DNA of 12,482 bases. Source: Bacilli bacterium. Its GTDB lineage: Bacteria; Bacillota_I; Bacilli_A; RF39; UBA660. The stretch lies in assembly GCA_024683115.1 (NCBI GenBank), contig JAIKYM010000074.1, positions 1 through 12,482 on the forward strand, given 5' to 3'. The translations under genes were made by a program, and so were the position numbers. The number at the start of each line of letters is the position of its first letter. The stretch's first letter is position 1. Below, one piece after another: positions 1-10,455 of the stretch. Below the pieces are notes generated by a model that saw nothing but the letters and a program-made list of their open reading frames with translations, had not been told where the DNA came from and made no database searches.

Positions 1-91
1 GTAATTACATTTTTTAATAATAAATTATTAAAAAACATTAAAAATATATAAAAAATCGTCAAAAATAGCATAGTATTTGATACTTGATATT
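1..91 (+). repeat. Cassette leader repeat, copy 1 (upstream of JAB gene)
   Basis: Aligns without gaps to 923-1013 with 8 mismatches by hand count. It is very A+T-rich and contains the perfect inverted repeat AGTAT-TTG-ATACT at 72-84. The repeat ends 34 nt before the start codon of the JAB gene; copy 2 ends 35 nt before its gene, so position relative to the gene is conserved. It probably holds the cassette promoter and perhaps an operator, but I could not settle on a -10/-35 pair. It begins at the first base of the window and may extend left. Confidence 0.85.
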
Positions 92-124
92 TCTGGTTAA
101 ACTTTTGAAAAAGAGGTGAGATAC

Positions 125-814
125 ATGTCAAATAAAAATCAATATAATTTTAGCAAATTACCACATTCAAAAATAATTATTACTGATGATTTATATCAAA
201 GACTTTTATTTCTAATGGGGAGAAGTGCGTGGGTTGCTAGCGAGCATATGTGCATATTTTATGGAAAAGAAATAGAATCAAATGTTATTCTTTTTGATGA
301 AATGAATCAATATGAAGATTATGATAGTAGAGGTGAGGGTTCCAAAAATCCTTATGATTATTCAGTAGGTCCTGGTGATGGTAAATTTGCAGAAGAATTA
401 GAGACTAGAATTAAATCATCATCAAAAGGGACAATTATTGCAGATATACACACTCATCCATCAAATGTTTGCTTTGGTAATGGAGATGAAGAAGAATATA
501 GATATTTTTCAACTGGTGATATAAAAACTAATCTAAGATGGAACGATTATCTAGAAAAATATGGATTAGAACATGTTGCAGGATTGATAGGTGTAGACAG
601 AATAAATGGAAATATGACAATATCTTTTATTTGGTATAGTAAAAAAGATTCAAAAGTATATCTATTTGATGATGTAGTTGTATATCATAAAGAATTAGAA
701 AAGTATGAATCATTACCTAAAGTAGGCGATATTCAACTACTATATAAAAATTGGGGTTTAGAGGATGTTCCGTTATCACAACAAGTGGAAGAACAATTAA
801 AAAGTTTAAAATAA
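125..814 (+). CDS. JAB/JAMM-domain metallo-isopeptidase-like protein
   Basis: 229 residues from the ATG at 125, which has GAGGTGA at 113-119 in front of it. A GTG three codons upstream lies inside that ribosome site and is less likely. The JAMM zinc-hydrolase pattern is visible: Glu40 in SEHMCIFYG, then HTHP with His109 and His111, then STGD with Ser129 and Asp132. The spacer between HTHP and SxxD is longer than in the textbook motif, about 17 residues. Family members cut isopeptide or peptide bonds next to ubiquitin-like proteins, or process small sulfur-carrier proteins. No E1-like, E2-like or ubiquitin-like gene is nearby, so the substrate is unknown. There is no signal peptide or membrane segment, so it is probably cytoplasmic. 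It is the sole gene of its unit, and the rbgA-start copy begins 16 nt after its stop codon. Confidence 0.75.
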   Translation: MSNKNQYNFSKLPHSKIIITDDLYQRLLFLMGRSAWVASEHMCIFYGKEIESNVILFDEMNQYEDYDSRGEGSKNPYDYSVGPGDGKFAEELETRIKSSSKGTIIADIHTHPSNVCFGNGDEEEYRYFSTGDIKTNLRWNDYLEKYGLEHVAGLIGVDRINGNMTISFIWYSKKDSKVYLFDDVVVYHKELEKYESLPKVGDIQLLYKNWGLEDVPLSQQVEEQLKSLK

Positions 815-818
815 AAGG

Positions 819-865
819 AGTTGATCCAAATGAATGAAAATAAAACTAATATTAACTGGTTGATA
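819..865 (+). repeat. Orphan copy 1 of the rbgA 5' end (core 830-861)
   Basis: Bases 830-861 match the first 32 nt of the rbgA gene (3129-3160) except for one synonymous change (ATT for ATA). The extended block 819-865 matches 2191-2237 with the same single mismatch, so the two orphans share flanks that the functional gene lacks (AGTTGATCCAA before, GATA after). It is preceded by AAAGGAG at 814-820 and could be translated as 14 codons, MNENKTNINWLILI, stopping at 872-874. After codon 10 nothing of RbgA remains. It is read as a recombination scar or attachment site, not a gene. Confidence 0.9.
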
Positions 866-922
866 TTGATTTAGTCTAGCCATTCATGAAACTCCTATAA
901 AATAAGGAAAAAAGATAATTTA

Positions 923-1013
923 GTAATTACATTTTTTAATAAATAATTATTAAAAAGTATTAAAAATAGATAAAAAATGGCCAAAAATAGTATAGTATTT
1001 GATACTTGATATT
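923..1013 (+). repeat. Cassette leader repeat, copy 2 (upstream of SAP-like gene)
   Basis: Ungapped match to 1-91 (8 mismatches by hand count), including the inverted repeat AGTAT-TTG-ATACT, here at 994-1006. It starts 93 nt after the ATG of orphan rbgA copy 1 and ends 35 nt before the ATG of the following gene. A weaker relative lies at about 2319-2360, before the transglutaminase gene: TTAAAATAGATAAAAA followed by AAAAAATGACCA. Confidence 0.85.
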
Positions 1014-1047
1014 GACGGGTAACCAATTAATAAAAGAGGCTGATATT

Positions 1048-1617
1048 ATGGATAGACCAGAATTAAATAAAAAGTTAGATAGTAAAACATTTAGAGATTA
1101 TTATTATTTAAAAGAAGAGTTAATTGCTTTTTGTAGAAAGAATAACTTACAAACTACTGGTAGTAAAATAGAATTAACAGATAGAATATCAAAGTATCTT
1201 GATACTGGAGAAATAATATCTAAGACTTATGATTCCAGGAGAACAAAAATAATAGATGAAATATCTCTTGATAGTATAATAGAAGATAACTTTGTATGCT
1301 CTGAAAAACATAGAGCATTTTATAAAAAAGAAATAGGTAAAAGTTTTTCATTTAATGTTTTATTTCAAAAGTGGCTAAAGAGTAATGCAGGAAAAACTTA
1401 TAAAGAATCAATAGATGTTTATTACAAAATATTAGAAGATAAAAAGAATAATAAAACTACTATTGATAAACAGTTTGAATATAATACATATATTAGAGAT
1501 TTCTTTAATGATAATAAAGATAAGATACTTGAAGATGCTATTAAATGTTGGAAATATAAAAAGAGTATAAAAGGTCATAACAAATATGAGAAAGAAGATT
1601 TAAAGGTGTTACTATGA
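1048..1617 (+). CDS. SAP-domain / DUF6434-like protein
   Basis: 189 residues from the ATG at 1048, preceded by AAAGAGG. A TTG at 1006 would give 14 more residues, but it lies within the shared leader and has no ribosome site. Residues about 20-54 (YLKEELIAFCRKNN...TDRISKYLDTG) resemble a SAP helix-extended-helix motif, which usually binds nucleic acid. Residues about 75-135 (NFVCSEKHRAFYKKEIGKSF, FQKWLKSNAGKTYKE) match what I recall of DUF6434 proteins of Bacillota. It is lysine-rich, with no membrane segment. The next gene overlaps it by 4 nt (ATGA), so the two are translationally coupled. The molecular role is unknown, and DNA or RNA binding is inferred only from the SAP-like part. Confidence 0.7.
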   Translation: MDRPELNKKLDSKTFRDYYYLKEELIAFCRKNNLQTTGSKIELTDRISKYLDTGEIISKTYDSRRTKIIDEISLDSIIEDNFVCSEKHRAFYKKEIGKSFSFNVLFQKWLKSNAGKTYKESIDVYYKILEDKKNNKTTIDKQFEYNTYIRDFFNDNKDKILEDAIKCWKYKKSIKGHNKYEKEDLKVLL

Positions 1618-2033
1618 ATTTAGATAAAATTGAGAAATTTATTGATAAACAAAAAGTAAGTTTTATTTGTTCAGTTGATGATGATAATTGCCCAAATGTT
1701 AAAGCAATGCTAAAGCCAAGAAAAAGAAATGGTTTAAAAGAATTTTATTTTTCTACTAATACATCATCAATGAGAGTAAAACAATATGAGAAAAATCCAA
1801 ATGCTAGCATTTATTTTTATCACAAAGGATTAATTAAATATGTTGGTGTTATGTTAAAAGGTAAAATGGAAGTATTAACAGACCAAGAAACTAAAAATAT
1901 GATTTGGAAAAAAGGCGACACAATGTTTTATAAAAAAGGTGTAACTGATCCAGATTATTGTGTTTTAAAATTTACTGCTACAAGTGGTAGATACTACTCT
2001 AATTTAAAAACTGAAAGTTTTGATATAAAATAA
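1614..2033 (+). CDS. Pyridoxamine 5'-phosphate oxidase-fold (FMN split-barrel) protein
   Basis: 139 residues. The layout fits small split-barrel flavoproteins: an N-terminal helix and strand (FIDKQKVSFICSVDDDNCPN), the KAMLKPRKRNGLKEFYFSTN strand pair, then the KQYEKNPNASIYFYHKG turn and the VGVMLKGKMEVL strand. In this family these segments build the FMN-binding barrel. Such single-domain members are usually flavin- or F420-linked reductases of unknown substrate, not true PdxH, and the length is normal for the group. It is cytoplasmic. Its ATG overlaps the stop of the SAP-like gene, so it should be made with it. A terminator-like hairpin follows 98 nt after its stop. Confidence 0.8.
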   Translation: MNLDKIEKFIDKQKVSFICSVDDDNCPNVKAMLKPRKRNGLKEFYFSTNTSSMRVKQYEKNPNASIYFYHKGLIKYVGVMLKGKMEVLTDQETKNMIWKKGDTMFYKKGVTDPDYCVLKFTATSGRYYSNLKTESFDIK

Positions 2034-2131
2034 ATAGAAAATTAAGAGATTATGATTTGTCATATGACCAAGTAACTATTATGATTAACTTGGTATTGGA
2101 TTAGTAAAACATAATAAATAAGTTAAAAATT

Positions 2132-2161
2132 GACGGAATTATACTAAATTTCGTCTTTTTT
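2132..2161 (+). terminator. Rho-independent terminator after the SAP/PNPOx-like pair
   Basis: Stem GACGGAATT/AATTTCGTC (9 bp with one G-U), a 6-nt loop and a run of six T from 2156 to 2161. It separates the second unit from the promoter-like element and rbgA-start copy that follow. Confidence 0.8.
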
Positions 2162-2162
2162 A

Positions 2163-2171
2163 TGGTATAAT
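2163..2171 (+). promoter_or_regulatory. Extended -10 promoter element before orphan rbgA copy 2
   Basis: TGGTATAAT is a perfect extended -10, directly after the terminator and 30 nt before the orphan rbgA ATG at 2202. It may be the original rbgA promoter, now cut off from the gene by the transglutaminase unit. No good -35 was found at 17 nt spacing. Confidence 0.55.
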
Positions 2172-2190
2172 TTTATTGATTTTAAAAAGT

Positions 2191-2237
2191 AGTTGATCCA
2201 AATGAATGAAAATAAAACTAATATAAACTGGTTGATA
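2191..2237 (+). repeat. Orphan copy 2 of the rbgA 5' end (core 2202-2233)
   Basis: Core 2202-2233 is identical to the rbgA start at 3129-3160 (32/32). The 11 nt before it and 4 nt after it are shared with orphan copy 1 but not with rbgA. The reading frame continues for 30 codons (MNENKTNINWLITI...) to a TAA at 2292-2294, with only a weak ribosome site. RbgA sequence is lost after codon 10. Confidence 0.9.
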
Positions 2238-2320
2238 ACGATTAATTTAAACCCCTGTAGAAAGTATTGTAAAATATGGAAAAACTCAAAATAACATCCT
2301 ACATGTTTTATATAAAAATA

Positions 2321-2329
2321 TGTTAAAAT
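2321..2329 (+). promoter_or_regulatory. Candidate -10 for the transglutaminase-like gene and rbgA
   Basis: TGTTAAAAT fits the TGnTAWAAT pattern seen at other starts in the window. It lies about 100 nt before the ATG at 2431, giving a long leader that includes the hairpin at 2352-2372. No clear -35 is present. Confidence 0.35.
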
Positions 2330-2351
2330 AGATAAAAATCAGTAAAAAATG

Positions 2352-2372
2352 ACCATTTTTAAACAAAATGGT
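2352..2372 (+). promoter_or_regulatory. Perfect 8-bp hairpin in the transglutaminase leader
   Basis: ACCATTTT, a 5-nt loop (TAAAC), then AAAATGGT. No T run follows, so it is not a terminator. It could be an operator or an RNA leader structure. Confidence 0.45.
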
Positions 2373-2430
2373 GGAAGAATTAATAAGGTGATTACAGAAG
2401 TTAACCCCCCTAGAAAATTGAGGTGATAAT

Positions 2431-3108
2431 ATGGGTATAGTATATAGAAATGATAATGGCGAAATTGTTTCAAAGGAAGAATACGAATCTGAATTAGCAA
2501 AATTTCAAATTAATGTTGATGCTCAATATAATATTATAGTTAATGAACTATTAAAAGAAATTAATAATAATGCACATTCAGATAAAGAAAAATTATGGAT
2601 GTTATATGATTATTTAACTTCTGAAAATATGAGTTATGATTTAACAGTACATCCTACTGATACAAGAAGTGCTACTCCACAAAGATATAGTTTTAGAAAT
2701 TATAAGAAATTAACTATAGCGCAAGACAGTAAGTATCCAGCTATATTGAATAATTCAGGTGTATGTATAACATATTCACTTGCATTTGAAGATTTAGCTA
2801 ATAGGTTAAGTATTCCATGTAGAGTAGTTAAAGGTTATACAGGAATGGATCATGCTTGGAATGTAGTTCTAATTGATAATGAAGTAAAACAAATTGATGT
2901 GGCTTATGCTATTATGAATAGAAAAATAAGTGATAAAAAAGATTTTTTCTTAAAAAATTCATTTAATGGTAGAACAATTACTTCATCAATATCTGATTTA
3001 GAAAGAGATATGAGAGAACAACAATACTTAAGAGAACATCCTCAAATAGTAATAAACTCTAGAACTGATGATGGTGAAGAAGAACCAAGAATCACAATAC
3101 ATAGATAA
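2431..3108 (+). CDS. Transglutaminase-like cysteine protease-fold protein
   Basis: 225 residues from an ATG with GAGGTGA 4 nt upstream, the same type of ribosome site as the JAB gene. The transglutaminase-like core is clear: NNSGVCITYSLAFEDLANRL with Cys112, then the GIPxRVV-like SIPCRVVKGYTG, then DHAWNVV with His141, and QIDVAYA with Asp156 completing a Cys-His-Asp triad. Family members form, cut or exchange amide bonds. Many bacterial ones are proteases or peptidases and not cross-linkers. There is no signal peptide, which is atypical of cell-wall-linked members, so it is probably cytoplasmic. The C-terminal 35 residues are polar and acidic. Its stop lies 20 nt before the rbgA ATG with no terminator between, so rbgA is probably read through from this gene. 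The substrate cannot be told. Confidence 0.75.
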   Translation: MGIVYRNDNGEIVSKEEYESELAKFQINVDAQYNIIVNELLKEINNNAHSDKEKLWMLYDYLTSENMSYDLTVHPTDTRSATPQRYSFRNYKKLTIAQDSKYPAILNNSGVCITYSLAFEDLANRLSIPCRVVKGYTGMDHAWNVVLIDNEVKQIDVAYAIMNRKISDKKDFFLKNSFNGRTITSSISDLERDMREQQYLREHPQIVINSRTDDGEEEPRITIHR

Positions 3109-3128
3109 TAATAAAGGAGGTAATACTC

Positions 3129-3160
3129 ATGAATGAAAATAAAACTAATATAAACTGGTT
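3129..3160 (+). repeat. Functional rbgA start carrying the repeated 32-nt core
   Basis: First 32 nt of rbgA, present also at 2202-2233 (identical) and 830-861 (one mismatch). In the orphans homology stops sharply after CTGGTT. The ribosome site AAAGGAGG at 3113-3120 differs from the orphan upstream flank, so the last unit appears to supply the translation signal. Confidence 0.9.
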
Positions 3161-3992
3161 CCCAGGTCATATGGCTAAAACAAAAAGAGAGGTAAGCGAA
3201 TTATTACCTCAAATAGATTTAGTATATGAACTTATTGATGCTAGAATACCTAAATCATCTAAGATAGTCGATATAGATAATTTAATTAAGAATAAACCAA
3301 GAATTCTTATCATGTCTAAAGTTGATTTATGTGATTTAACTGAAACTAATAAATGGAAATCACACTATGAAGAACAAGGCTATAAAGTAGTACTTGTTAA
3401 CTTTAATGATAACAATGATTTTAAAAAGATTGTTACTGCTACAAAAGAAATATCTGATGAGATTAATGAAAAGAGAATTAACAAAGGTTTAAAACCTAAA
3501 GAGATAAGAGCATTAGTTGTAGGTATACCAAATGTAGGTAAATCAACATTTATAAATAAGATGGCAGGTAAGAAGGTTGCCCAAGTAGGTAATATGCCTG
3601 GTGTAACTAAGAATCTTGTATGGTTAAAGACTAACTATAATATTGTTCTTTTAGATACTCCTGGTATTCTTTGGCCTAAGTTTGACTCTAAAGACTTAGC
3701 ATTAAACTTAGCTTCGTGTTCAGCTATTAATATCGAAGTATTAGATAAACATGAAGTAGCATGTCATATATTAAGTAAGTTAAGTAAGAAATATCCAAAT
3801 ATATTAAAAGAAAGATATAATTTAGATAGTTTCTCAAATGATACAATTGAAGATTCATATGAAATAATAGGTAAGAAATATGGTTGTTTGATTAAGGGTG
3901 GAGAAATAGATTATACTAGAGTATCTAATCAAATAATTAATGATGTAAGAAATGAAGCTATTAAGAATATAACTTTTGACAGTAAAGAGTAA
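3129..3992 (+). CDS. rbgA: Ribosome biogenesis GTPase RbgA (YlqF)
   Basis: 287 residues, close to Bacillus RbgA. It is a circularly permuted GTPase needed for late 50S subunit assembly. The N-terminal NWFPGHMAKTKRE (residues 9-21) is the family signature. The G motifs appear in permuted order: G4 as SKVD (63-66; many relatives have NKxD), the G1 P-loop GIPNVGKST (132-140), G2 Thr160 in PGVTK, and G3 DTPG (176-179) followed by ILWPKF. The C-terminal part with KERY and GCLIKGG is the RNA-binding domain typical of the family. Start: ATG with AAAGGAGG 8 nt upstream. It is followed by its own terminator. Its first 11 codons are the repeated core of the upstream array, so expression of this essential-type gene seems to depend on signals brought by the neighbouring accessory unit. 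Confidence 0.97.
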   Translation: MNENKTNINWFPGHMAKTKREVSELLPQIDLVYELIDARIPKSSKIVDIDNLIKNKPRILIMSKVDLCDLTETNKWKSHYEEQGYKVVLVNFNDNNDFKKIVTATKEISDEINEKRINKGLKPKEIRALVVGIPNVGKSTFINKMAGKKVAQVGNMPGVTKNLVWLKTNYNIVLLDTPGILWPKFDSKDLALNLASCSAINIEVLDKHEVACHILSKLSKKYPNILKERYNLDSFSNDTIEDSYEIIGKKYGCLIKGGEIDYTRVSNQIINDVRNEAIKNITFDSKE

Positions 3993-4010
3993 AATAATTA
4001 CTCTTTTTTT
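3984..4010 (+). terminator. Terminator of rbgA, overlapping its stop codon
   Basis: Perfect 9-bp stem AAAGAGTAA/TTACTCTTT with a 5-nt loop, then a T run to 4010. The last two codons and the stop of rbgA form the 5' arm. Confidence 0.92.
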
Positions 4011-4033
4011 ATGATTTATTATTCTGTTAATCT

Positions 4034-4039
4034 TATAAT
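4034..4039 (+). promoter_or_regulatory. Candidate -10 of the serpin gene
   Basis: TATAAT, 20 nt before the ATG at 4060. The implied leader is very short, and no consensus -35 is visible. Confidence 0.45.
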
Positions 4040-4059
4040 TGAATAGAGGAGAGTTATAT

Positions 4060-5610
4060 ATGGAAAAAACACAAAGAAAAAAAGTTGGTTTCTTTTTAAT
4101 TATTACTGCTGTAGTTATGCTTACTTGTGCAGGCATATTATATGTAACAATGGTTGGAAAGAAAGCTGACACTAAGACAAATACAAGTGATAATAAGAAA
4201 TATTTATCTTATAAGATGAAAGGTAATTCATTAGAGGATTTTGACTTATATTTCTTACAATTAGAAAATGAAAAGATTAATAAATTATATAGTCCACTTT
4301 CAATTAAATATGCACTTGAAATGTTAGCTGAAGGAACTAATGGTGAAACTAAAACACAATTAGCTGAATTATTAGGTTCTTATAGTGCTAAAGCGTATCC
4401 TAATAATAAGAATATGTCATTTGCAAATGCAATCTTTATAAAAGATTCTTATAAAGATTCAGTTAAAGAAGATTATATTAAAAACTTAAAACAAAAGTTT
4501 AATGCTAGTGTTTTCTATGATTCATTTAAGACACCAGAACAAATCAATTCATTTGTAAAAAAGAATACATTTGATTTAATTGATAATCTACTTGATGATG
4601 TATCATCTAATGATTTTGTTTTAATTAATGCATTAGCTATTGATATGGAATGGGTTAACAAGATTAAACCTGAAGAAGATGATTATGAAGTAGAATATCC
4701 ACATGAAAGTTACTTTGCATATGTACAAAATCTTAAATACAATGGATATGATCAATTTGATTTTAAAGGTATGGATAAACAAGTTGCTGCTTTAGATTTT
4801 GATTTATCTGTTAATAAGTATGATATTATTAAAGTGCTTGGTGAAGATAATATTAAGAAAACTATAGCAAAAGCTTATGAAGAAGCAAAAGCAGATCCTG
4901 ATAGTGGTTTATGCGGTGATGAAGGAACTACTGAACAAGTAGTAAATAGATTTGTTAAAGAATTAAAAACAAATTATAAATCATTTGATAAATCAACAAA
5001 TTTTGAATTCTATGTTGATGATGATGTTAAAGTATTTGCCAAGGATTTAAAAACTTATGATGGAGTAACTTTACAATATGTAGGTATCATGCCTGAAACA
5101 AAAGAATTAGATGAATTTATCAAAGATACTAAGGCTGAGGATTTAAATAAGATAATAACAAATTTAAAAGAAACTAAATATGATACATTTAAAGAAGGCG
5201 TTATTACTAATATTAAAGGTTCAGTACCAGTATTTAAATTTGAATATGAATTACAATTATTAAATGATTTAAAGAAACTAGGTATTAGTGATGCATTTGA
5301 TCAAAACAAAGCTGATCTATCTAATTTAACTAGTAGTAAGGCTTATATTGATGATGCAGTACATAAAGCTAATATTGAATTTTCTAATGATGGAATTAAA
5401 GCTGCTGCTGCTACATCGATGGGTGGTAAAGGCGGAGATAGTTGTGGATTCGAATATTTCTTTGATGTACCAGTTGAAACTATAGATCTTACTTTTAATA
5501 AACCTTATATGTTCATGGTAAGAGATAAAGATTCTGGTGAAATTTGGTTCATGGGTACAGTTTATGAACCAATTGATGCAGATTCTATCGAATATGGTGA
5601 ATTTGAATAA
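4060..5610 (+). CDS. Membrane-anchored serpin (serine/cysteine protease inhibitor)
   Basis: 516 residues from the ATG at 4060, which has AGAGGAG upstream; an upstream TTG at 4039 overlaps the -10 and is rejected. A basic N-terminus and one hydrophobic segment (about 10-32) make a signal anchor. The Cys at 23 lacks a proper lipobox. Serpin landmarks follow: YSPLSIKYALEMLAEGTNGET (77-97), NAIFIKDSYK...LKQKFNA (123-149), LINALAIDMEW (188-198), the hinge NDGIKAAAATS (443-453) and the C-terminal TFNKPYMFMV...GTVYEP. The alanine-rich, charge-free hinge is what inhibitory serpins need for loop insertion. Counting 14 residues on from the P15 Gly445 puts P1 near Gly459, in MGGKGGDS. The body is longer than a usual serpin of about 370-400 residues, with an apparent insertion near 240-315. 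It probably faces outward and traps extracellular or host proteases. It has its own promoter-like element and terminator. Confidence 0.9.
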   Translation: MEKTQRKKVGFFLIITAVVMLTCAGILYVTMVGKKADTKTNTSDNKKYLSYKMKGNSLEDFDLYFLQLENEKINKLYSPLSIKYALEMLAEGTNGETKTQLAELLGSYSAKAYPNNKNMSFANAIFIKDSYKDSVKEDYIKNLKQKFNASVFYDSFKTPEQINSFVKKNTFDLIDNLLDDVSSNDFVLINALAIDMEWVNKIKPEEDDYEVEYPHESYFAYVQNLKYNGYDQFDFKGMDKQVAALDFDLSVNKYDIIKVLGEDNIKKTIAKAYEEAKADPDSGLCGDEGTTEQVVNRFVKELKTNYKSFDKSTNFEFYVDDDVKVFAKDLKTYDGVTLQYVGIMPETKELDEFIKDTKAEDLNKIITNLKETKYDTFKEGVITNIKGSVPVFKFEYELQLLNDLKKLGISDAFDQNKADLSNLTSSKAYIDDAVHKANIEFSNDGIKAAAATSMGGKGGDSCGFEYFFDVPVETIDLTFNKPYMFMVRDKDSGEIWFMGTVYEPIDADSIEYGEFE

Positions 5611-8433: not shown

Positions 8434-10455
8434 ATGAAGTTAGTTATAGTTGAATCACCAGCAAAAACTCATTCTATAGGAGCTTACCTTGGAGGAGACT
8501 ACAAAGTAGTCTCTTCAAAAGGTCATATAAGAGATTTAGCTACATCTGGTAAATTTGGTTTAGGTATAGATGTTGAAAATGATTTTAAACCATCTTATAT
8601 AATTAAATCTGGAAGAAATAAAGATGTTTCAACATTAAAGAAAGATGCTAAAGAAGCAGATTTTGTATATCTTGCAACTGACCCAGACCGCGAAGGAGAA
8701 GCTATTAGTTATCATCTATATGAAACACTAGGATTAGATGATAAGAAATATGATAGAGTTGTATTTAACGAAATAACTAAGAATGCTGTATTAGAGGCTT
8801 TTGAACATCCTCGTAAGATTGACTATGATTTAGTTAAATCACAAGAAACTAGAAGAATGCTAGATAGAATAATTGGTTTTAGATTATCTAAGTTAATGCA
8901 GTCTAAGACTGAAGGTAAATCAGCTGGACGTGTTCAATCTGTAGCTCTAAAACTTGTAGTTGATAGAGAAAGAGAAATTGAAGCATTTATTCCTAAAGAG
9001 TATTGGGAAATAACAGCTGACTTTGATTCATTTAAAGCATCTTTAGAAAAATATAAAAATGAAAAGTTAGAATTACATAATGAAGAAGAAGTTAATAAAG
9101 TATTATCTTCATTAGGTAAAGAATATAAAGTATCACTTGTTGAAAAGAAAGAAAAAGCTCGTAAAGGTGTTATGCCATTTACTACATCAACATTACAACA
9201 AGCACTTATTAATAAATATTCATATTCGTCAACTAAGACTATGCAAATAGCTCAAAAGTTATATGAAGGTGTTGATATTGGATCTGAAACAGTAGGTTTA
9301 ATAACTTACATGAGAACTGACTCAACAAGATTATCACCAGTATTTACAAATGACGCATTTAAATATATTGAAAAAGAATTTGGTAAAGAATACTTAGGTG
9401 TTGTTAAAAAAGGTAAGAAAACTGAAAATGTACAAGATGCGCATGAAGCCATAAGATGTACATCAGTTACTCGTACACCAGAAAGTATTAAGAAATATTT
9501 ATCAGATGATGAATATAAAGTATATTCAATAATATATGCTAGATCGCTTGCTTGTCTAATGGCAGATGGTAAGATTTTATCAACAACTGTTTTATTAGAT
9601 AACAATGATTATGAGTTTAAGGCAACTGGTACAATTGAAACTTTCGATGGTTTCTTAAAAGTTTATAGACCTTATTTTTCAACAACAGATGAAGAATTAC
9701 CTGAAATTAAAGAAGGAGATATTCTTACAACTGATAAAGTTGAATCTGAACAAAAATTTACAAAACCAAAACCTAGATATACTGAAGCTACATTAATACA
9801 AGAAATGGAAGAACTAGGTATTGGTAGACCTTCTACATATGCAACAACTATGCAATTACTTAAAACTAGAGGTTATGTAAGAGTAATAGAAAAGAAATTC
9901 CATCCTACTGAAATTGGTATTAATATAACTGATAAATTACAATTAGGTTTCTCAGATATTATTAATGTTGATTATACTAAAGAGATGGAAGATGATTTAG
10001 ATAAAATCGCTGACAATGAAATGGATAATATTAAAGTATTAAGAGATTTCTATAATACATTTGAACCACTTGTTGAAAAAGCATTCAAAGAAATTGAAAA
10101 GGATGCACCTGAAGAAACAGGTGAGACTTGTCCTGAATGTGGAGCACCAATGGTTATAAGACATGGTAGATTCGGTAAGTTTGAAGCTTGTTCAAATTAT
10201 CCAGAATGTAAGCATATTAAAAAAGAAGAAAAAGAAACAGTTGAAGTATGTACATGTATAAAATGTGGTAAACCAATTGTTGAAAGAAAAACAAAAAGAG
10301 GTAAAGTCTTCTATGGATGTTCTAACTATCCTAAATGTAAGGAAGCGTACTGGGATAAACCAACAGGTAATAAATGTCCTGTATGTGGAAGTATGATAGT
10401 TGAAGGTAAAGATGGATTACATTGTTCATCTTGCCAATATCCAGAAGGGGATTAA
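8434..10455 (+). CDS. topA: DNA topoisomerase I (type IA)
   Basis: 673 residues. It relaxes negative supercoils by passing one strand through a transient break in the other. The TOPRIM domain opens at MKLVIVESPAKT (Glu7) and has ATDPDREGEAISYH (81-94) with its Asp/Glu metal ligands. The catalytic tyrosine is Tyr292 in GLITYMRTDSTRLS. GIGRPSTYATT (462-472) is another family hallmark. Three C-terminal zinc ribbons follow: Cys566/569/586/592, Cys608/611/629/635 and Cys648/651/664/667, as in many Bacillota enzymes. The ATG lies 6 nt after the upstream stop, and AGAAGAGG at 8415-8422 gives a rather long 11-nt spacing. It is the last gene of the operon. Confidence 0.98.
   Translation: MKLVIVESPAKTHSIGAYLGGDYKVVSSKGHIRDLATSGKFGLGIDVENDFKPSYIIKSGRNKDVSTLKKDAKEADFVYLATDPDREGEAISYHLYETLGLDDKKYDRVVFNEITKNAVLEAFEHPRKIDYDLVKSQETRRMLDRIIGFRLSKLMQSKTEGKSAGRVQSVALKLVVDREREIEAFIPKEYWEITADFDSFKASLEKYKNEKLELHNEEEVNKVLSSLGKEYKVSLVEKKEKARKGVMPFTTSTLQQALINKYSYSSTKTMQIAQKLYEGVDIGSETVGLITYMRTDSTRLSPVFTNDAFKYIEKEFGKEYLGVVKKGKKTENVQDAHEAIRCTSVTRTPESIKKYLSDDEYKVYSIIYARSLACLMADGKILSTTVLLDNNDYEFKATGTIETFDGFLKVYRPYFSTTDEELPEIKEGDILTTDKVESEQKFTKPKPRYTEATLIQEMEELGIGRPSTYATTMQLLKTRGYVRVIEKKFHPTEIGINITDKLQLGFSDIINVDYTKEMEDDLDKIADNEMDNIKVLRDFYNTFEPLVEKAFKEIEKDAPEETGETCPECGAPMVIRHGRFGKFEACSNYPECKHIKKEEKETVEVCTCIKCGKPIVERKTKRGKVFYGCSNYPKCKEAYWDKPTGNKCPVCGSMIVEGKDGLHCSSCQYPEGD

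Follow-up and report, generated by a model that had tools for sequence, protein, structure and literature searches.

Introduction

Integrons gather tandem, co-oriented and mostly single-gene cassettes by means of an IntI-type tyrosine integrase, which acts on attC sites folded as single-strand hairpins, while clusters of attC sites lacking integron-integrases (CALINs) need no neighbouring integrase. Another class of mobile genes, the pdif modules, uses 28-bp XerC/XerD sites. This article describes an array of integron-like form at the 5′ end of rbgA, the gene for ribosome biogenesis GTPase A, in a Bacilli bacterium of the family UBA660 (assembly GCA_024683115.1). The window, that is the whole stretch of DNA analysed, is the entire contig JAIKYM010000074.1 (12,482 nt), one of the 180 contigs of a 1.04-Mb genome that is 88% complete. 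It is read here as the rbgA-proximal end of a cassette array whose units would be joined to rbgA by site-specific recombination, most likely through a large serine recombinase (LSR), and we put the probability of this reading at about 0.7.

The 5′ end of rbgA is already known as an integration target. Tn5253 and other streptococcal integrative and conjugative elements (ICEs) enter there with a tyrosine integrase, and the Tn5253-type attachment site (attB) spans 83 bp and takes in only the first 20 nt of the coding sequence, according to passages of PMC6079316 and PMC4701971. An earlier reading of the window, made from the sequence only, had held an attachment site at this place with repeated cassette capture to be, as far as known, undescribed; as to the site itself, these elements correct it. 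Like Tn5253, the units described here integrate at the rbgA 5′ end and restore the start. Unlike Tn5253, a single large ICE with tyrosine Int/Xis, they form long arrays of recombinase-less units with the exchange at codons 9–10; the recombinases found adjacent to rbgA are LSRs, and the tyrosine recombinase of the one ICE found here (in genome G187) lies about 8 kb inside the element.

Three other systems come close. The accretion of cis-mobilizable elements (CIMEs) and the integrative and mobilizable elements (IMEs) with serine recombinases are reviewed in sections of PMC5704250. Like CIMEs, the present units seem to be integrase-less and bounded by attachment sites, and they are stacked at one target; unlike CIMEs or tandem ICE-IME accretion, they mostly hold a single gene, reach up to 18 sites per contig and are common to different genera. 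The staphylococcal cassette chromosome (SCC) and its enterococcal counterpart (ECC) have the LSRs CcrAB, the ECC carrying its own ccr genes (in part of PMC6222049). Here too LSRs would move gene blocks into one chromosomal site, but the window's units contain no LSR, and the LSRs described below score 91–94 bits with the CcrB model against a cut-off of 900. The Acinetobacter pdif modules consist of a gene flanked by recombination sites and are thought to spread as a module (PMC7399989); the present units share that plan but, unlike modules built on Xer sites, have a chromosomal anchor and a coding site.

The likeness to integrons and CALINs lies in the tandem, co-oriented, mostly single-gene cassettes, the many rare cargo groups, the existence of arrays without a recombinase and the probable growth at an anchored end. 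Unlike in integrons, no tyrosine recombinase was found within 20 kb of a listed site (by a PF00589 scan, which is not IntI-specific), LSRs adjoin the anchor, and the site is an in-frame protein-coding start followed by a conserved left end and anchored on rbgA. As a linear stretch whose conserved sequence codes for the start of rbgA, it would seem to differ from the folded hairpin of attC. Among the papers listed, mostly the top-ranked ones, from the open PMC literature, preprints excluded, no description was found of serine-recombinase or other non-integron cassette arrays, nor of serine recombinases at rbgA (ylqF). With the rbgA 5′ site itself already known, the part for which no description was found is the long array of mostly single-gene cassettes.

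The repeated start of rbgA

The first 32 nt of rbgA, ATGAATGAAAATAAAACTAATATWAACTGGTT, occur three times on the + strand of the window, at 830–861, 2202–2233 and 3129–3160. The sequence-only reading had noticed these three copies, and they are confirmed: the 1.04-Mb genome holds no further copy at up to 3 mismatches, and 200 dinucleotide shuffles gave no match. As that reading also said, both orphan starts are preceded by a common AGTTGATCCAA and followed by a common GATA. It understated the extent of the repeat, however, which covers 100 nt at 81% identity (813–912 and 2185–2284). Positions 1–112 are 85% identical to 923–1034, so that the contig opens inside the left end of a further unit; since nt 62–178 of unit B align to positions 1–116, a fourth junction is expected about 61 nt upstream of base 1. 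The features of the array are as follows.

1–116, + strand: leader at the left end of unit A, truncated where the contig starts
116–814, + strand: unit A cargo gene (232 aa), without a match in Pfam or NCBIfam
813–861, + strand: right end of unit A, a ribosome-binding site and an orphan rbgA start (codons 1–10), with the exchange window AACTG at 854–858
860–1035, + strand: left end and long leader of unit B; site model match at 814–917 (E 2.7e-25) and agreement with the leader consensus
1048–1617, + strand: first cargo gene of unit B, a SAP_new25 and DUF6434 protein (Pfam E 1.1e-21 and 8e-20) with homologues outside arrays
1614–2033, + strand: second cargo gene of unit B, a pyridoxamine 5′-phosphate oxidase-like protein (Pfam PF01243, E 1.2e-14)
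2132–2171, + strand: terminator-like hairpin (2132–2155), then a −10-like TGGTATAAT (by eye), towards the orphan rbgA start
2185–2233, + strand: right end of unit B, a ribosome-binding site and an orphan rbgA start, with the exchange window at 2226–2230
2232–2425, + strand: left end and leader of unit C; site model match at 2186–2289 (E 1.6e-22)
2431–3108, + strand: cargo gene of unit C, a transglutaminase-like protein (Pfam PF01841, E 1.9e-7)
3112–3160, + strand: right end of unit C, which is the present functional rbgA start; site model match at 3112–3160 (E 6.1e-11), exchange window at 3153–3157
3129–3992, + strand: rbgA, anchor and target gene

No recombinase appears among the open reading frames (ORFs) and families inspected in the window, in agreement with the first reading.

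The site and its arrays in relatives

The site was sought in 386 genomes sampled from the family (G, L and C numbers below are our handles for genomes, loci and contigs). The junction pattern, an rbgA start joined to GAT...TTTA with at most 3 mismatches, is present in 122 of them, the reversed control giving 2 chance matches among those listed; the full site, rbgA start plus conserved left end, measures about 150 nt. Within the window's genus (11 genomes including its own) the 32-nt start recurs at up to 3 mismatches in four genomes, with four copies in G008, two in G006, one in G001 and three in that of the window, and with other cargo between. Elsewhere in the family the arrays are far longer: the pattern was counted 28 times in G346 (on several contigs), 17 in G187, 14 in G154, 12 in G264 and 11 in G406, and a profile search of the site raised this to 18 sites over about 15 kb in G187 and 14 in G264. 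The arrays are same-strand, hold up to 18 sites per contig and lie upstream of rbgA.

Upstream of rbgA, relatives thus have none, one or many units, with other cargo and the same junction. This bears out the proposal of the sequence-only reading that small elements insert at the rbgA start, rebuild it and are captured repeatedly. Instead of three units fixed by vertical inheritance, variable units are found in relatives, and unit B is common to another genus.

Beyond the family the site likely occurs too, though rarely. In a class-level sample, 20 of the 54 genomes of the family match, as do 17 of 341 outside it, each of the latter once with 2–3 mismatches and against 4 in the reversed control; in one of these 17 (L294 of G531, another family of the class) the whole site model is matched near a contig end (E 2.8e-17). 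Among GTDB contigs, 104 stretches have the exact pattern, and the 80 of these that are listed are titled mostly as Bacilli, Erysipelotrichaceae and other Bacillota metagenome-assembled genomes (MAGs), many of them from rumen or gut samples. A scan of IMG/VR gave three contigs, on each of which the match to the site model covers no more than 25 nt, possibly by chance.

In G006:C2, G007:C24 and G015:C31 the rbgA match begins at contig base 1 (query residues 9, 37 and 49). Assemblies perhaps break at the repeated rbgA start, giving contigs that begin in the gene.

Anatomy of the site

The conserved stretch, as judged from 241 sites, extends from the ribosome-binding site AAAAGGAGTTGATCC via ATGAATGAAAATAAAACTAATATAAACTGG into TTGATWACGATTTAGTCAA and continues for about 110 nt; since sites were picked by pattern or profile, and only identical stretches were removed as duplicates, conservation within the pattern is biased. 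Units begin on the left with TTGATWACGATTTA..., with or without a leader of about 150–190 nt. This long common leader is present in 182 of 261 units, and the remainder include many short leaders that end in the ribosome-binding site of the cargo.

The right end is a coding sequence. In 304 of 331 sites an uninterrupted reading frame leads from an ATG to the Asn-Trp codons (0 and 67 for the other two frames), a Shine-Dalgarno-like motif precedes 247 of these 304 ATGs, and the coding length is mostly 9–17 codons with the frame kept. An in-frame copy of this kind is what one would expect had each unit at some time been obliged to act as the start of the gene. rbgA occurs together with at least one orphan site (E ≤ 1e-5) in 62 loci, of which several overlap or come from a genome already represented; every one of the 160 orphan sites there lies upstream of the gene and on its strand. 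Among 122 loci with at least two sites none mixes strands. RNAalifold, applied to the first 60 rows of the gapped site alignment, found no structure.

Sites farther from rbgA tend to score lower, with a mean Spearman coefficient of 0.36 over 18 arrays (p 0.005; 12 positive), and the first site scores below the mean of the remaining ones in 13 of the 18. This test pools arrays with and without rbgA and several contigs per genome, and omits 2 of 20 loci, which have fewer than four sites; the frame and polarity analysis as a whole leaves aside sites with E >1e-5, short context or no A-W-Y-TG ending. The trend would be expected if arrays grow at the rbgA end, for which it is weak evidence.

Units and cargo

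The median length of the 261 units is 894 nt (10th–90th percentile 601–1973 nt), and 200 of them contain a single ORF of at least 70 aa. Of such cargo ORFs, 349 out of 356 are co-oriented with rbgA. The cargo is diverse: it falls into 203 protein groups, 133 of them singletons. A Pfam scan covered 118 of the 203 groups (118 of 195 reference proteins), the commonest families being acetyltransferases, helix-turn-helix proteins, ASCH, methyltransferase, Rce1, NUDIX and HAD. Some cargo matches PADLOC models, including PDC candidates and RmrA, which is not proof of defence.

Mobility and the exchange point

That units travel is clearest from unit B, which is 94.3% identical in DNA over nt 1–1370 of 1372 to a unit in G215, a genome of another genus, while rbgA of the two genomes is only 67.7% identical in DNA and 53% in protein; units therefore move horizontally. 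More generally, 76 pairs of units share 88% identity or more over 300 nt or longer, and in 66 of them the right neighbours are unlike; in 37 of these 66 the similarity stops between −6 and +20 of the junction in both members.

The point of exchange was mapped on 55 right-boundary and 22 left-boundary pairs, chosen for alignment up to the junction and not independent, as they share members. Position −7 tracks the left unit (0.87 vs 0.55), position −1 tracks the right unit (0.95 vs 0.67), and position −4 tracks neither (0.51, 0.36). The exchange therefore falls within AAYTG, a window of at most 5 nt in rbgA codons 9–10, and not at codon 11 as the sequence-only reading had it. Tyrosine recombinases exchange over an overlap of 6–8 bp. 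So narrow a window would suit better the 2-bp serine exchange that is given for Tn4451 in a passage of PMC5704250.

The genes of unit B are also found on their own. Twelve loci were fetched for its DNA: the window itself, two arrays (G215 and G391) and nine with no site in the fetched flanks, each of which carries one of the unit's two genes. In 5 of 6 such free-standing cases inspected, the homology starts at the ribosome-binding site or start codon, or close by, a hint that bears on how cassettes form. The free-standing copies at L283, L284 and L286 have upstream of them what looks by eye like a terminator hairpin, and a TATAAT-like box immediately ahead of the ribosome-binding site.

How could a unit enter rbgA without breaking it? 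Each unit consists of the left end TTGATWACGATTTA..., as a rule a single gene, and a right end that mimics the start of rbgA, namely a ribosome-binding site, an ATG and about ten in-frame codons ending in Asn-Trp. A recombinase, most likely an LSR from an ICE or from small elements at the same place, would join the unit to rbgA within AAYTG, probably by way of a circular intermediate. The arriving right end codes for the same peptide; rbgA would thereby be restored and the target regenerated, so that the next unit could insert at the same point and the array would grow beside rbgA. Well supported within this scheme are the cassette architecture, the movement of exact units and the window of exchange.

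Recombinases next to rbgA

In G264 a serine recombinase gene, whose frame lacks the start that its relatives have, lies in the last unit before rbgA, and a search with it matches 122 of 193 family genomes at 1e-30. Thirty LSR loci were fetched. In 16 of them rbgA is just downstream, and three more hold the site, one weakly (E 4e-4); the distance from the end of the LSR gene to the Asn-Trp codon is 203–1100 nt. LSR genes stand between the last site and rbgA in G264, G112, G123, L153 and L171. One type, of about 415–421 aa, sits in small units bounded by the site and rbgA (G112, G123); the other comes in pairs of about 522 and 566 aa. All three LSR proteins scanned have resolvase, recombinase and zinc-ribbon domains, so that a protein of this build is encoded at the rbgA target both in small units and in an ICE, though not in the window's units. 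LSR genes inside arrays are in part broken, as in G264 (L216/L217) and in contig C5 of G013, where L231:8888–9750 matches in two pieces; intact relatives exist elsewhere.

In G187 an element of about 38 kb separates an array of 18 sites from rbgA. By Pfam this element encodes ParB, SSB, a TraG P-loop ATPase, an M23 peptidase, a MobL relaxase, a type IV secretion system coupling protein and a type I restriction system, and on this gene content it is taken for an ICE; an LSR pair forms its last part, at rbgA. The site at the ICE left end in G187 and G406 resembles the left ends of units. A ParB-like gene follows a site in G187, G406, G346, G391, G146, G013 and L113, and would mark one ICE family at the rbgA junction. 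Related ParB-like genes (42–100% identity) were seen after a site in L113, L226, L223, L243, L231, G187 and G406.

It is from the LSR genes directly upstream of rbgA in so many relatives that we infer the movement of units by LSRs acting in trans, which is likely.

Points against the proposed LSR-built array

Several observations weigh against this reading. The window's genome has no match to PF07508, the LSR family, in its 88%-complete assembly, and none was found in the array-bearing G154, G067 and G248. Eleven of the 30 fetched LSR loci have neither rbgA nor the site. The commonest cassette end, MNENKTNINW, is absent from all 26 LSR-linked rbgA starts listed (19 distinct places). The sequence-only reading had suggested a search for an integrase whose element ends in the core: LSRs adjoin rbgA in many relatives, but none was seen with this end. 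A 321-aa PF00589 protein is also encoded in the ICE of G187, some 8 kb ahead of rbgA and between the HsdM and HsdS genes. At the junction itself, an unlinked position −4 is not predicted for a serine recombinase that needs a matched central dinucleotide, and in 13 of the 66 right ends the similarity stops inside both units. With one exchange site we cannot account for the 47 of 76 pairs with the same cargo but a different left leader; the unit at 9987 in G264 and that at 9007 in G187, for instance, share cargo and right end and have left leaders of about 27 and 182 nt, and across arrays the switch between short and long leader lies near the cargo's ribosome-binding site. The polarity trend is negative in 6 of the 18 arrays. 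Finally, no circular unit form was seen, the genomes being draft assemblies.

Other explanations

There is a small but real chance that the units are not cassettes mobile in their own right but CIMEs, left over after deletions from larger ICEs or IMEs that had entered serially at rbgA. The same junction is indeed occupied by an ICE and by small units that bear an LSR, several array genomes have no LSR match, and CIME accretion is a published process (in sections of PMC5704250). Yet decay would have to account for a median unit of 894 nt with one ORF in 200 of 261 and for the absence of conjugation families from the 25 commonest of the 113 Pfam families (118 cargo groups). A whole unit with exact ends is moreover present in two genera, and other shared units have unlike neighbours. 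The sequence-only reading had left the choice between cassettes moved in trans and remnants: the cassette form of these units of one or two genes without a recombinase is borne out, movement in trans is no more than likely, and those of the window may conceivably be remnants.

A tyrosine recombinase, be it the host Xer, as proposed for pdif modules, or a Tn5253-like integrase, has a slim chance of being the mover. Streptococcal ICEs with a tyrosine integrase do, after all, target the rbgA 5′ end; inspection by eye shows imperfect inverted halves in the core, on either side of AACTGG, and position −4 behaves as if in heteroduplex. PF00589 matches occur in 28 of 30 genomes searched; the window's genome has one, on another contig, and besides the protein in the G187 ICE there is one about 25 kb from a site on contig C16 of G346. 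Against this stand the exchange window of at most 5 nt, the lack, in genomes common to both listings, of any PF00589 match less than 20 kb from a pattern site, and the genomes G006 and G248 (the latter 93% complete), which carry sites and have no PF00589 match, not even a XerC/D-like one. The gene in G187 belongs to a type I restriction system on contig C4 (L264:14168–18522, L265:412–2601), and its place between hsdM and hsdS is the layout of what we take to be an hsdS-switching system.

That the repeated sites recombine by homology, perhaps following DNA uptake, and so shuffle the genes with no site-specific enzyme active now, is improbable. The sites do offer 100–150 nt of homology, and both the exchange of leaders and the array genomes without an LSR match would fit, but among the pairs aligned as far as the junction, left ends (+1 to +45) and right ends (from about −15 outwards) stay with their unit, the changeover takes place within a few nucleotides, and the first insertion at rbgA is left unexplained.

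A tandem duplication of the rbgA start that has stayed static, or an artefact of assembly, as might be suggested by some MAG contigs beginning at or inside that start, can be discounted, refuted as it is by relatives in which the same architecture holds different cargo in many genomes and an exact unit is common to two genera.

Other features of the window

In the cargo protein of unit A, an HTHPSN stretch, noticed by eye, is presumably reminiscent of JAB/MPN metalloproteases. The first cargo gene of unit B was listed as an ORF at 1006–1617, with an ATG at 1048. The cargo protein of unit C has a 60% identical counterpart in an array unit of L195, the two units being 69% identical in DNA.

The terminator at 2132–2155 is the single one found, against 0.2 expected in shuffles. 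The −10-like TGGTATAAT behind it was not flagged by a promoter scan, and promoter-like sites show no excess (18 vs 20.7 in shuffles). On account of this promoter the middle copy, at 2202, had been considered as the native rbgA start; the idea was dropped, as a like terminator-promoter arrangement precedes unrelated genes. A search of positions 1–4200 against Rfam gave two matches only, both far under the family gathering score. Just downstream of rbgA, at 4039–5610, lies a gene for a serpin-family protein (PF00079, E 8.6e-48).

Significance

On the reading of the window as the end of an LSR-built cassette array, there is a somewhat better than even case for a second, independently evolved integron, in which an LSR captures mostly single-gene cassettes at the start of an essential ribosome-assembly gene. 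Each cassette's coding copy of the rbgA start would then let the host gene survive capture. The arrays give access to a pool of cassette genes, with 203 protein groups counted in 261 units, and make cassette formation testable, since the homology of unit B genes outside arrays starts at or near the ribosome-binding site. Serine recombinases directed at a conserved bacterial gene may be a further gain from the arrays, which would also account for contigs beginning at rbgA. If the reading is true, gene-cassette capture takes place outside integrons, in gut and rumen Bacillota, probably with a different recombinase and at a recombination site that must stay a working protein start.

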